A DNA stretch of 64,000 nucleotides from Calothrix sp. 336/3 (GTDB lineage Bacteria; Cyanobacteriota; Cyanobacteriia; Cyanobacteriales; Nostocaceae). How positions within the stretch are numbered: the stretch's first letter is position 1; the number at the start of each line of letters is the position of its first letter. A program made the position numbers and the translations under genes. Positions 27,939 through 34,800 of the stretch are shown here, one piece after another. Location: NCBI RefSeq assembly GCF_000734895.2, contig NZ_CP011382.1, positions 2,892,700 to 2,956,699 of the forward strand, given 5' to 3'. The notes below the pieces were generated by a model that saw nothing but the letters and a program-made list of their open reading frames with translations, was not told where the DNA came from and searched no databases.

Positions 27939-30275
27939 TTATAACCAATCATCTTCATCATCCCAGTTGTCTTGATAGCTGGGACGGGGTTTCCGCGAAG
28001 AGTTACGATTACCTTCTAATCCTCCTGGAGTGCGATTTCCTCGACCATAATCTTTACTACCATAATCACGGCTGTCATTGTTGCGATCGCCGTAGGGTGG
28101 TTCCTTGGGTGCATCCTTAGTATTGCGGTTATAGTCGTAGTCGTCGTAATCGCGGTTGCTAGAGTCACGACTGCCATAATCTCGGCTACCATAATCGCGG
28201 TTGCTAGAGTCACGGCTACCATAATCCCGGCTACCATAATCGCGGTTGCTAGAATCACGACTACCATAATCTCGGCTACCATAATCGCGGCTACCAGCAT
28301 CGCGGTTGTAGTCTTTGTTATAGTCACGGCTACCATAGTCCCGGCTACCATAATCGCGGCTGCCATAATCACCGCGATCGCGGTACTTGTCGTCATCCTT
28401 GTCGCCACCTGTAAATATATCGCGGATAGCGCCAAACAAATCGTCGTCTTCTTCTTCTGCGTAGTACTCGCGGACTTCTCGACTCAGTTCTGATAAAGCG
28501 TCTTGCAGGTCGGCATAGGATTGATCAATACCGCGATCGTCATTAGCTTGTAAAGCTTCTCGTAACTCCCGACTCATATTATCAATGCGCTGACGACGGT
28601 TACGGGCAAATTGCATTCCGAATTCGATCGCCACTTCCCGTAGTTGTCTTTCTCCTTGGAGAATCAAAGCTTCGGAGCGTGTGCGTTTTTCTACCCGCTC
28701 TTTGCGTTCCCTGTCTTGATTGGCAAATTTTTCCGCGTCTTGAATTGCCCGTTTAATTTCCGATTCGCTTAGGGTAGAAGCGCCTTGGATAGTTATACTT
28801 TGTTCTCTGCCGGTGGTTCTATCCAGGGCTGTCACCTGTAATATACCGTTGGCATCGATATCAAAGGATACCTGAATTTGAGGAACACCACGGGGTGCGG
28901 GGGGGATGCCATAGAGCTTAAATCGTCCTAGGGACTTGTTGTCAGCAGCCATTTCCCGTTCCCCTTGCACAACACTAATTTCCACAGTGTTCTGATTATT
29001 TTCAGAGGTAGAGAAAATATCGGAGCGACGTACGGGGATGGTGGTGTTGCGGGGGATAAGTTTTTTCATCACTCCCCCAATGGTTTCTAATCCTAGGGAA
29101 AGGGGAGTCACATCTAACAGGAGAACATCTTTAAAATCTCCTGCGAGAATCCCTGCTTGAATTGCTGCACCTACTGCGACAACTTCATCGGGGTTGACGT
29201 TTTGGTTGGGGTCACGACCAATCATTGCCCGTACTAATTGCTGTACCATGGGCATACGGGTGGAGCCACCCACTAACACTACTTCGTCGATGTCACTGGG
29301 AGAAAGTCCAGCGTCTTTGAGAGCGCGTTTGACTGGTAAGCGAACTCTACCGAGTAAATCGTCACATAAACCCTCAAATTGGGAGCGGGTGAGGCGAGTT
29401 TCTAGGTGCTTGGGACCGTCTTCTGTGGCAGTGATGAATGGTAAATTAATGTCAGTCACACTAACGGCAGAAAGTTCGATTTTTGCCTTTTCTGCGGCTT
29501 CCATGAGTCTTTGTAAAGCTTGGCGATCGCGCCGCAAATCGACTTCATCTGTCTCTAAAAACTGCTCTGCTAACCAATCAACTATTTTTCGGTCAAAATC
29601 ATTACCGCCGAGTTGGGTATCTCCACTGGTGGATTTCACCTCAAAGACTCCATCCCCTACTTCCAGGATGGACACGTCAAAGGTTCCCCCTCCCAAGTCA
29701 AACACCAGGATAGTTTCCGTTTCTCCCCGATCTAAACCATAGGCAAGGGATGCTGCGGTAGGTTCATTGAGAATTCGTAATACTTCTAATCCAGCGATTC
29801 TGCCTGCATCTCTAGTGGCTTGGCGCTGGGAATCGTTAAAATATGCAGGTACGGTAATTACTGCTCCGGTGACGGGTTCACCTAAATATTTACTGGCATC
29901 TTCTGTCAGTTTTTTGAGAATCATCGCGGAAAGTTCTTCCGGGGCAAAGTCCTTACTCATTCGAGGACAGGCAATTTTAATATTACCCATTTCATCCTTG
30001 CGAATAGTATAGGGAACTCGCTTTGATTCTGATGATAATTCCCCGTAGCGCCGCCCCATAAACCGCTTGACGGCAAAAAATGTGTTTTGAGGGTTGAGGA
30101 CTGTTTGTCGCCGTGCCATCTGCCCTACAACGCGCTCTCCATCCTTGCTAAAACCGACTACAGAGGGAGTTGTTCGCGTACCTTCCGCATTGGCAATAAC
30201 CACCGGCTTGCCACCCTCCATGACGGCGACTACAGAGTTTGTTGTCCCTAAGTCGATGCCTACTACCTTGCCCAT
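27939..30275 (-). CDS. dnaK: Hsp70 chaperone, DnaK3-type with long repetitive tail
   Basis: ATP-dependent chaperone. The nucleotide-binding domain has GIDLGTTNS at the start, [11 protein letters not shown] and VGGSTRMP. The substrate domain has [17 protein letters not shown]. The 778 residues exceed the usual 630-640 because the C-terminus carries about 140 residues rich in Asp, Arg, Tyr, Gly and Ser, built from YGSRD repeats, and ends DDEDDWL without EEVD. A long divergent tail is known for cyanobacterial DnaK3, implicated in membrane-associated work. ATG 30275 is preferred to GTG 30284 because GGAG then lies 11 bases upstream rather than nearly abutting the start. Confidence 0.94.
28135..28385 (-). 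repeat. Coding tandem repeat in the dnaK tail (15-bp YGSRD and 45-bp units)
   Basis: The tail is made of repeated YGSRD pentapeptides (15 bp), organised in part into a 15-residue higher-order unit [15 protein letters not shown] (45 bp) present about three times. Copies are nearly identical in DNA, which suggests recent expansion by slippage or unequal recombination. Confidence 0.85.
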
Positions 30276-30682
30276 GCGTTGCACTTCTCCTACTGGTTTG
30301 TATATATAATAGTTTTTTGTGTTTTAGAAGCAATGCTTGATTTATTGTATCTTGCAGTTGAGAGATACACGGTCAAGCTGGGTTATAAAGTCGGAAATTT
30401 AGAAGTATAAAGTTAATCTACCTGCAAGGGTATCTTGAGGAAATAGTTTCTGGGTAAAGTTATCATAATGTTGCCCTAGTTAGGATTCTAGGGGAGAAGT
30501 CTGCATATTGGCGATAAACCTACGGTTCGCTTCGCGATAGAGCTACGCTCCGCCGAAACGGCGATCGCGCCATGATTTACCTAAGAATCATATTCGTAAA
30601 TATTGACCCTAGGGTAAGGTGTGGAAATCCGCACCTGGCAAGGTTCCCCTGACTAATTAAATTATCTCTTGACAGTTTCTAG
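30276..30682. other. Region upstream of dnaK
   Basis: About 400 bases with no gene. It should carry the dnaK promoter. It contains the 35-bp repeat at 30534-30568 described separately. No CIRCE-type inverted repeat was seen. Confidence 0.45.
30534..30568. repeat. 35-bp dispersed repeat, intergenic copy
   Basis: GCGATAGAGCTACGCTCCGC followed by CGAAACGGCGATCGC. It matches 34 of 35 bases with the copy at 32103-32137 inside the oxoprolinase gene. It ends in a HIP1 octamer and has internal GC-rich dyad symmetry. Confidence 0.85.
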
Positions 30683-31858: not shown

Positions 31859-34800
31859 ATGAAGTGGGAATTCTGGATTGATCGGGGTGGTACTTTCACG
31901 GATATTGTAGCAAAACGTCCTGATGGTAAATTGGTGATTCATAAGCTACTATCAGAAAATCCCGAACAATACGCAGATGCACCAATACAAGGCATAAGAG
32001 ATATTTTAGGTATATCTGGGGATGTGGCAATTCCTACAGAAGAGATTGCTGCCATCAAGATGGGAACAACAGTAGCAACGAATGCATTATTGGAAAGAAA
32101 TGGCGATAGAGCTACGCTCCGCCGAAGCGGCGATCGCACTCTTTTAGTGATCACCCAGGGTTTCCGGGATGCACTGCGAATTGGATATCAAAATCGTCCA
32201 GATATTTTTGCCCAGGAAATCATTTTGCCCGAAATGCTCTATGAGCGGGTGGTGGAAGTAGAGGAACGTTACAGCGCCGAAGGTGAAGAGTTAGTACCCC
32301 TCAATTTTGATGCTGTACGTCCCCAATTGCAAGCAGCATACGATGATGGGATGCGCTCCTGCGCCATAGTTTTCATGCATGGTTATCGCTACCCGGAACA
32401 TGAGCTTCAGGTGGCAGCGATCGCCAAACAAACAGGATTTTCCCAAGTATCAGTATCCCACGAAGTTAGCCCCTTGATGAAGTTAGTTAGTCGAGGGGAT
32501 ACAACTGTGGTAGATGCCTATTTATCACCAATTCTGCGGCGCTATGTGCAACAGGTGCAGAGTCAGTTACAAGGGGATGGTGCCTTACCGAAGTTAATGT
32601 TTATGCAATCCAATGGTGGGTTGGTGGATGCTGATAGCTTTCAAGGTAAAGATAGTGTCTTGTCTGGTCCGGCAGGGGGAATTGTTGGAGCGGTACAAAC
32701 TAGCTTAGAAGCAGGATTTCAGAAGATTATTACTTTTGATATGGGTGGTACATCTACGGATGTAGCTCATTACAATGGTAACTATGAGCGCACCTTGGAA
32801 ACGGAAGTGGCGGGGGTACGTCTGCGAACGCCAATGATGGCAATTCATACCGTAGCGGCAGGTGGTGGCTCTATTTTACACTTTGATGGTTGCCGTTACC
32901 GTGTCGGACCAGATTCGGCGGGGGCAAATCCTGGTGCTGCTGCCTATGGTAGGGGTGGTGCATTGACGGTGACTGATTGTAATGTGATGGTGGGTAAGTT
33001 GCAACCGCAGTTTTTCCCCCAGGTGTTTGGGGTGAATGCAGATTTACCCTTAGATGCAGAGATTGTCAGGCAAAAGTTTGGGGAGTTAGCCGCAGAGATT
33101 GGGGATGGGCGATCGCCTGTGGAGGTGGCTACGGGTTTCTTGGCGATCGCAGTGGATAAAATGGCAAATGCTATCAAAAAAGTTTCTCTGGAACGGGGAT
33201 ACGATGTTTCAGAATATACTTTGTGCTGTTTTGGAGGTGCGGGAGGGCAGCACGCTTGTTTGATTGCCGATGCTTTGGGGATGGAGCAGGTTTTAATTCA
33301 TCCTTTTGCGGGAGTGTTATCTGCCTATGGTATGGGTTTGGCGGATGTGCGGGTGTTGCGAGAGCGGGCTGTGGAGGGGTTATTGGATGGGGAATTATGG
33401 CGAGAGTTGCAGGGGATATTGGGGGAGTTGGAGCGGGAAGCGAGGGAAGAATTAATTAGTCAAGATATTGAGGATGGGGGAGATATTAAGATAATCAGGC
33501 AAGTTTTGTTGAAATATCAGGGTACAGATACAGCTTTATTAGTAAATTTTGCTGATTTAGAGGTGATGATGGCAGAATTTGCTGATACTCATCACCAACG
33601 TTACGGTTTCACTCTCCCAGAAAAGGGACTGATTGTGGAGTCGGTGACGGTGGAGGCGGTTTATGGGATTAGAAGTCGGGAAAGGAAAGTATTTTCTCGT
33701 ACAAGAAATACTCAGCCAGTGCCTGCCGATACTGTCAATATTTATACGGCTGGGAAGTGGCATGATGCACCAGTATATCGTCGAGAGGATTTGCAACCTG
33801 GTGATGTGGTGTCAGGTGTAGCAATGATTGTGGAAGCAACAGGAACTAATATTATTGAATTAGGATGGCAGGGAGAGCTAACAACAGAAAATAACTTGAT
33901 TTTGCGACGAAAAGGCGAAAATTCCCAAAATTTACGGCTGAGTACTGAAAAAGCTGACGCGGTGATGTTGGAGATTTTCAATAACCTCTTTCGGGCGATC
34001 GCCGAGCAAATGGGTATTACTTTGCAAAATACTAGCTCCTCTGTCAATATCAAGGAACGCCTAGATTTTTCGTGTGCCATTTTTGATAAGTACGGACAGT
34101 TAGTTGCCAATGCACCCCATATTCCTGTACATCTTGGCTCCATGGGGGAGAGTGTTAAGGCATTAATTGCTACCAAGGGTGAGCGGATACAACCGGGAGA
34201 TGTGTTTGCTGCAAATAATCCCTACAACGGAGGTACTCACCTACCGGATATTACCGTGATTACCCCGGTTTTTGGCGATTCTCTGCTATTTTACGTGGCT
34301 TCTCGCGGACATCATGCAGATATTGGGGGAATTACTCCCGGTTCCATGCCTCCCCATAGTATTAAATTACAGGAAGAAGGCATATTATTGGATAATTTTC
34401 AGTTAGTTAAGGAAAGAAAGTTTCAGGAAACAGAGTTAATTGATTTGTTGACAAATTCTCCCTATCCGGCTCGGAATATTCAGCAAAATATTGCAGATTT
34501 ACAGGCACAAATTGCTGCTAATCAACGGGGTGTCCAGGAATTAGGTAAGATGGTTAATTGTTATGGTTTAGATGTCGTTAATGCCTATATGCAATTTGTT
34601 CAGGATAATGCGGAGGCGGCTGTCAAACGTGTGATTTCCGGTTTGCAAAATGGCAGTTTTCGCTATGAATTGGATAATGGCAGTGTTATTTGTGTTGATA
34701 TCAAAATTGACAGGGAGAATCGCACGGCTAAAATAGATTTTACTGGGACTTCTGCACAGCAAGAAAATAATTTCAATGCTCCCTCCTCTGTATGTCAGGC

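Follow-up and report, generated by a model that had tools for sequence, protein, structure and literature searches.

RESULTS

The locus and its repeat

The gene considered here lies in a window of 64,000 nt, by which we mean the whole stretch of DNA that was analyzed, and encodes a protein of the fused HyuA/HyuB type (Table 1). The 1205-aa ORF contains the Pfam domains PF05378, PF01968, PF19278, and PF02538 (Hydantoinase A and B), and its relatives by sequence in the PDB are 7hk5 and 6yra. NCBIfam models matched the protein below their curated cutoffs only, and thus the host is assigned to a type and to no exact substrate. Within the gene lies the 35-mer GCGATAGAGCTACGCTCCGCCGAAGCGGCGATCGC (32103-32137), all of which the first-pass annotation had taken to be inserted. 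The inserted length is instead 27 nt, and the last eight bases, GCGATCGC, are the HIP1 octamer of the host. That nine residues, ATLRRSGDR, are added in frame was borne out: they are residues 85-93 of the ORF, a gain in the host protein that leaves the reading frame intact.

The boundary of the element slides over a repeated GGCGAT (32102-32107 and 32129-32134), so that the exact cut is ambiguous. The 6-bp repeat could be read as a target-site duplication, which in a MITE goes with the terminal inverted repeats of a parent transposon, but some copies of the element (e.g., in L007 and L012) have C or A before the left GCGAT and yet G before the right-hand octamer.

Table 1. Features of the element, its host gene, and its neighboring copies (window coordinates)
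Feature	Coordinates	Strand	Evidence
Fused HyuA/HyuB (5-oxoprolinase/hydantoinase type) host gene, 1205 aa	31859..35476	+	ORF, Pfam, PDB relatives
35-nt repeat copy: 3 HIP1 bases + 27-nt element + 5 HIP1 bases	32103..32137	+	
Inserted 27-nt element, SDR5 convention (between nt 3 and 4 of HIP1)	32106..32132	+	Orthologue gap
Predicted hairpin I, GAGC-TAC-GCTC	32109..32119	+	Fold; arm covariation in own genome and in 24-nt relatives
Predicted hairpin II, CGCCG-AAG-CGGCG	32120..32132	+	Fold; 3/5 pairs with double-sided changes
Intact HIP1 GCGATCGC at right-hand end; possible target for further insertion	32130..32137	+	Sequence; 27-nt-period arrays elsewhere in the genome
Second window copy, intergenic, one mismatch to 32103-32137	30534..30568	+	
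Diverged unit, GCGATA AACC-TAC-GGTT CGC-TTC, adjoining the 30534-30568 copy	30511..30533	+	Direct reading

At the protein level, 7hk5 and 6yra align to the host with a nine-residue gap at the position of the insert. An AlphaFold model of host residues 1-700 was weak (mean pLDDT, 62; below 50 at residues 77-83) and draws residues 84-90 as a helix; tentatively, the model places the insert between a helix (71-81) and a strand (94-99). The nine added residues are most likely tolerated by the enzyme rather than useful to it. We note that host residues ~237-245 (32564-32602, codons 236-248) correspond to a second insertion hotspot in other cyanobacteria, at which 43 of 80 genome-set orthologues have 6 to 45 extra residues and the gene in the window has no such insert. 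Several of the inserts at this hotspot are simple or repeat-like DNA (e.g., CCCAATG runs, GGGAATCGGGA-like units, and GTAGGGGCGGTGCCCCCGTGCCCGCCCTC-like sequence), and the inserts translate through in one frame (tblastn; loci L259-L338).

The second copy in the window had been placed by the first-pass annotation at 30534-30568 with a single mismatch, and both the position and the mismatch were confirmed. Together with the adjoining diverged unit, which has the same two-hairpin layout and was matched by no model or pattern search, it looks like a two-element tandem. Several arm-compensated subfamilies occur side by side in this genome. The 19-mer core of the element matched the window twice at ≤3 mismatches, whereas 100 shuffles that preserved dinucleotides gave 0.00 matches on average. 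Rfam, applied to the whole window at the gathering threshold, found a tRNA alone.

Copies in this and other genomes

Within its own genome (6.42 Mb), a search allowing ≤3 mismatches locates the 35-mer at 24 places, namely the pair in the window and 22 others, and 4 of the 24 are exact copies. The 19-mer core occurs at 42 places genome-wide at the same tolerance and its reversed control at none. Searches of other genomes gave a different picture, as the 35-mer at ≤3 mismatches was absent from all 59 relatives, and an 18-mer core present 26 times in its own genome was found once in G002 and in none of the other 215 genomes. In that one G002 copy the layout is unchanged and the arms of hairpin II are altered. 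A degenerate 29-mer exact scan of genome contigs, from which the own genome may have been missing, gave no match. Moreover, a plasmid collection yielded weak matches only, the best being to a Nostoc plasmid (80% coverage, 88.9% identity, E 0.06), and a phage collection yielded nothing convincing. The comparison genomes all belong to other genera; set against these, the 27-nt form is apparently lineage specific and nearly private to this genome. The simplest reading would be that it multiplied rapidly once its lineage had separated from the genera sampled.

A covariance model found at least 73 places in the own genome at E ≤1 (150 of 8381 first-look candidates were scored), and a pattern search with free hairpin-I arms found 39 places, 7 of them outside the 73. 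We kept 68 of the 73 and left out five as partial or weak (674531, 4180144, 5081845, 4465082, and 1963699); 6241592, in an ORF of 131 aa, was set aside as ambiguous. Copies in tandem arrays were counted one by one, and 8 was subtracted from the length of each match to give the insert length. Most inserts so defined measure 23, 24, 26, or 27 nt; lengths of 21, 28, 47, and 54 nt occur once each. Tandem arrays with a 27-nt period occur elsewhere in the genome, at 674476, at 703609, and at further places. Two of the three units are identical in the array at 703609-703681, and the units differ from each other at 674476-674548. The copies at 1153522 and 6276260 have near-identical left flanks, and those at 103728 and 105807 have right flanks in common, so that some copies moved inside longer repeats and not singly.

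At E ≤0.1, the covariance model, which was fitted to the 27-nt form, had matches in 20 of 59 relatives, most of them weak. A 24-nt form with the same two-hairpin layout in HIP1 was found in 98 of the 208 genomes of the window's family, judged from the genera of the orthologues to be the Nostocaceae, and in 23 of its 56 genera. This genome contains 24-nt variants of other kinds but no instance of the exact 24-nt pattern seen in the relatives. Among the matches listed, reversed controls gave zero both for the 24-nt pattern and for the own-genome pattern, and with the reversed 19-mer also at zero, chance recurrence is ruled out.

HIP1 as a preexisting target

The N-terminal 400 residues of the host were matched in 58 genomes (57 besides its own), and loci were compared for 29. 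The nine residues are absent from all 29, the gap being exactly nine codons, and in 14 the site codons read GGCGATCGC, which contains HIP1 and encodes GDR. In a second set of 80 genomes (Nostoc, Cylindrospermum, Dolichospermum, Microcoleus, Pseudanabaena, and others), ATLRRSGDR was again found in none, an exact nine-residue gap was found in 79, and GGCGATCGC was present in the site region of 54. Because HIP1 is uninterrupted in so many orthologues, it was the earlier target and not a product of the insertion. The idea that the insert created a new HIP1, which the first-pass annotation had put forward, is thus ruled out: HIP1 was there before, was split, and was then restored. By these alignments, the 27 nt entered a preexisting HIP1, as GCG + 27 nt + ATCGC, with a boundary that slides over GGCGAT. 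The broader proposal, an in-frame insertion of a dispersed mini-repeat into the gene, has held up, in that the residues are shared by no orthologue in either set and the sequence recurs at 24 places in the genome.

One locus, L278 (MAG UBA11153), is the exception among the 80. It has an unrelated 24-nt, eight-residue in-frame insert in the same HIP1 (GGCGAT / CGC). The L278 insert is single copy in its own genome at ≤3 mismatches, and its status as a dispersed element is thus unsupported.

Empty sites were also sought for other host ORFs by comparing 24 segments with three relatives. A nine-residue gap was found in the NAD(P)H-hydrate dehydratase of 3/3 relatives (HIP1 in one), and the serine recombinase has an empty site in 2/2 relatives, with HIP1 in both. 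The site is empty without HIP1 in 3/3 relatives for a lipoate-ligase family protein and in 1/1 for a methyltransferase. An 18-residue gap was found in 3/3 relatives, with HIP1 in two, for a protein that we take from its motifs to be RNR-like, its Pfam matches being to homing-endonuclease domains. Segments of an M48 peptidase, a GAF-kinase, and an integrase gave gaps of other sizes that are consistent but inexact, and the remaining segments of the 24 gave no informative alignment at the insertion site.

Structure and covariation

The RNA of the element is predicted to fold as GCGAU-A-(GAGC UAC GCUC)(CGCCG AAG CGGCG)-AUCGC at -14.4 kcal/mol, mildly better than shuffled sequences (z -1.53). Two hairpins lie side by side and are closed by the HIP1 halves; in the 27-nt form an A is bulged and the second hairpin has 5 bp. 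Covariation is stronger structural evidence than the fold of a single copy. Among 19 distinct copies (18 from the own genome and one from G002), three hairpin-II pairs show double-sided changes, compared with a shuffled mean of 0.7 for the whole structure. The arms of hairpin I in the own genome are fully paired, GU allowed, in 6 of 11 distinct pairs versus 1.72 expected, a level reached by 7 of 20000 shuffles. In the 24-nt relatives, for which 77 distinct sequences were drawn from the matches listed, full complementarity holds for 9 of the 25 distinct arm pairs versus 2.35 expected, and 0 of 10000 shuffles reached 9. If GU is allowed, another 5 of the 25 pair, and the remaining 11 still fail to pair fully.

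Reading frames of the coding copies

Twenty-six of the 68 copies are in frame, in 25 ORFs; 25 of these copies are in ORFs of ≥150 aa, and the 26th is in an ORF of 143 aa that encodes a GDT1 domain. Pfam matches were found in 19 of the 25 host ORFs. The inserted length is divisible by three in all 26 coding copies (27 nt in 23 and 24 nt in 3), compared with 31 of 41 intergenic copies, the other 10 being 23, 26, 28, or 47 nt (Fisher P = 0.005), a result that is partly circular because frame-breaking copies would fall outside long ORFs. The 23-, 26-, 28-, and 47-nt forms are intergenic only, with one of the 68 copies ambiguous. When intergenic copies were excised, no ORF of ≥120 aa was restored in 41 rows (39 distinct places), and the largest was 105 aa; two pairs of identical copies were located at their first member, and one unit per tandem array was removed. 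Thus, no broken gene was found, which reduces the circularity without removing it. Further copies, for which the first-pass annotation had asked, are many, and those in ORFs lie in several phases and on both strands.

Of its six frames, the main consensus has two that contain a stop codon. One is same-strand phase 2, which 3 of the 68 copies leave open and no host uses; the other is opposite-strand phase 1, open in 18 of the 68 and used by two hosts, both with variant sequences. The encoded peptide varies with frame and strand (the AASAERSSI type among others).

Copies of the element are depleted in genes relative to their target. The window contains 73 HIP1 sites in 64 kb, and 62 of them are inside ORFs of ≥150 aa (phases 31, 24, and 7); for random positions the figure is 76.6%. 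Set against 62/73, the 26/68 of the copies is strongly reduced (Fisher P about 1e-8, with one 64-kb window as the reference and arrays counted by unit). Given so strong a depletion, selection probably removed many coding insertions. The 24-nt form looks less depleted in the relatives, as 26 of 36 centered copies are in ORFs of ≥150 aa, 19 of the 26 with a Pfam match at 1e-8, in a sample that took mainly the first match per genome and required an intact pattern and that is not a census.

Several individual cases deserve mention. A CHASE2-domain protein (G000:C1:680179-680267; L174 7280-7368 and just beyond) contains three consecutive in-frame units, DRATLRPQG DRATLRPRG DRAMLRLKG. Two related FAD-binding-domain proteins of different genera, in L232 (G062) and L244 (G086), have the same 24-nt in-frame element, LRSPMAGRSPS, in the same place, which suggests that the element has been retained for long or that one HIP1 was hit more than once. 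In the window, a minus-strand gene at 27939-30284, DnaK-like by sequence, has at its end a 15-nt-period array (28049-28389) that encodes a GSRDY-type tail, and in L238 and L240 an Hsp70 protein has a 24-nt element in its Arg/Asp-rich tail.

DISCUSSION

SDR5 is said to be a small dispersed repeat of Nostoc, 21-27 nt in length, described by Elhai et al. in 2008 in Genome Res, and its predicted secondary structure is reportedly common to SDR4 and SDR6 and backed by compensatory changes. SDR elements are reported in the same account as possibly using RNA intermediates. The 27 nt of our element fall in that size range. According to a further source, SDR5 inserts within HIP1, between nt 3 and 4 (PMC4390886). 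Small repeats of this kind are thus already known in cyanobacteria, where the first-pass annotation had taken those compatible with reading frames to be rarely documented. Insertion inside HIP1 is likewise what we find in the host gene, the recombinase, the NAD(P)H-hydrate dehydratase, and the RNR-like gene, although other empty sites are without HIP1. The two also differ in distribution, as our 27-nt form is almost confined to this genome and a 24-nt form is common in the relatives. We call the element SDR5-like by its insertion behavior, the comparison being with the description of SDR5. In the text that our literature search covered, which did not extend to the original 2008 SDR5 paper, nothing was found on frame-compatible SDR insertion.

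Very probably, the 27-nt sequence is one copy of a structured mini-element of the SDR5 type that targets HIP1, is specific to this lineage, and has moved recently. That it moved recently is suggested by its dispersal and by empty sites across genera. The element may travel as a folded single strand, either RNA or single-stranded DNA, without a gene of its own, and the folded strand would be joined into a cut HIP1. Insertion splits HIP1 and leaves a complete HIP1 at the right end, and a restored target fits the tandem arrays of 27-nt period, also inside proteins. Copies in genes would persist where length and frame leave the protein readable, and selection would remove the others.

Alternatively, the spread might not involve transposition of the element itself: copies flanked by HIP1 could undergo homologous recombination or gene conversion with one another, or they could be carried within larger repeats. 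HIP1 is dense in the window, one source mentions evidence tying it to site-specific recombination (PMC4390886), the two identical units at 703609-703681 are what slippage or unequal exchange would give, and the left flanks at 1153522 and 6276260 are nearly the same. The flanks of most single copies, however, are by eye alike over only 5-9 bases around HIP1, too short for ordinary homologous recombination, and the units at 674476-674548 are unlike each other. We consider recombination an unlikely general explanation.

The mini-element also resembles the GTAG/CGTC-tagged REPs and REPINs, which are nonautonomous dispersed palindromes of 20-40 bp (PMC3733652 and PMC3116915), and GTAG-tagged REPs are known in filamentous cyanobacteria (PMC3733652). 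It might, like them, consist of short palindromic dispersed units moved by a RAYT/TnpA-type transposase. In neither the consensus nor the fold, however, is a stem-loop flanked at its foot by unpaired GTAG or CGTC, the sole GTAG being inside hairpin I on the minus strand, and the 24-nt copies of the relatives, unlike REPs, are not mainly extragenic in our sample. Thus, a REP-like origin seems quite improbable, more so than recombination.

About as improbable, and if anything slightly more so, is the possibility that in-frame copies are adaptive, either because the peptide alters protein function or because the hairpins regulate the mRNA. Copies are kept in conserved enzymes and the RNA is predicted to fold, but the peptide changes with frame and strand, the hosts are without evident common function, and the copies are rarer in genes than HIP1 sites are. 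Finally, an ancestral origin of the nine residues with loss in other lineages has nothing in its favor and is refuted by the orthologue survey, since the residues are missing from every one of 29 and 80 orthologues spanning many genera and the same DNA is found again in spacers and in genes of other families.

Returning to an SDR5-type mini-element that targets HIP1, we note a parallel in the Rickettsia palindromic elements. These are about 150 bp, encode a conserved peptide (PMC10969869), and insert in frame in unrelated protein-coding genes, where they are tolerated (PMC10969869 and PMC3733652). Both are dispersed palindromic DNA found in frame in unrelated genes, here 25 ORFs. The element of this genome and its relatives differ in being 24-27 nt, in using several frames and both orientations, in encoding varied peptides, and in targeting HIP1. 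It would be an analog of the Rickettsia elements and not a member, in an unrelated lineage and with no common origin implied.

We lean, if only slightly, toward a wider reading in which HIP1-targeted two-hairpin elements of 24 or 27 nt constitute a frame-compatible mobile class throughout the Nostocaceae, possibly the smallest in-frame protein inserter known. Their target is mostly coding, insertion would add 8 or 9 residues, the self-restored target would let arrays grow inside proteins, most frames are stop-free, and sets of peptides would be specific to lineages.

The host gene offers a concrete case of a tiny noncoding repeat turning into protein sequence, with empty sites legible at the nucleotide level in dozens of genomes, and similar short inserts of the 27-nt repeat occur in about two dozen other proteins. 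The finding makes testable what cuts HIP1, an octamer strongly overrepresented in these genomes, and whether an element of 24-27 nt without a gene of its own can be mobile. If the family-wide class is real, each lineage of the Nostocaceae would build up its own set of peptide insertions.
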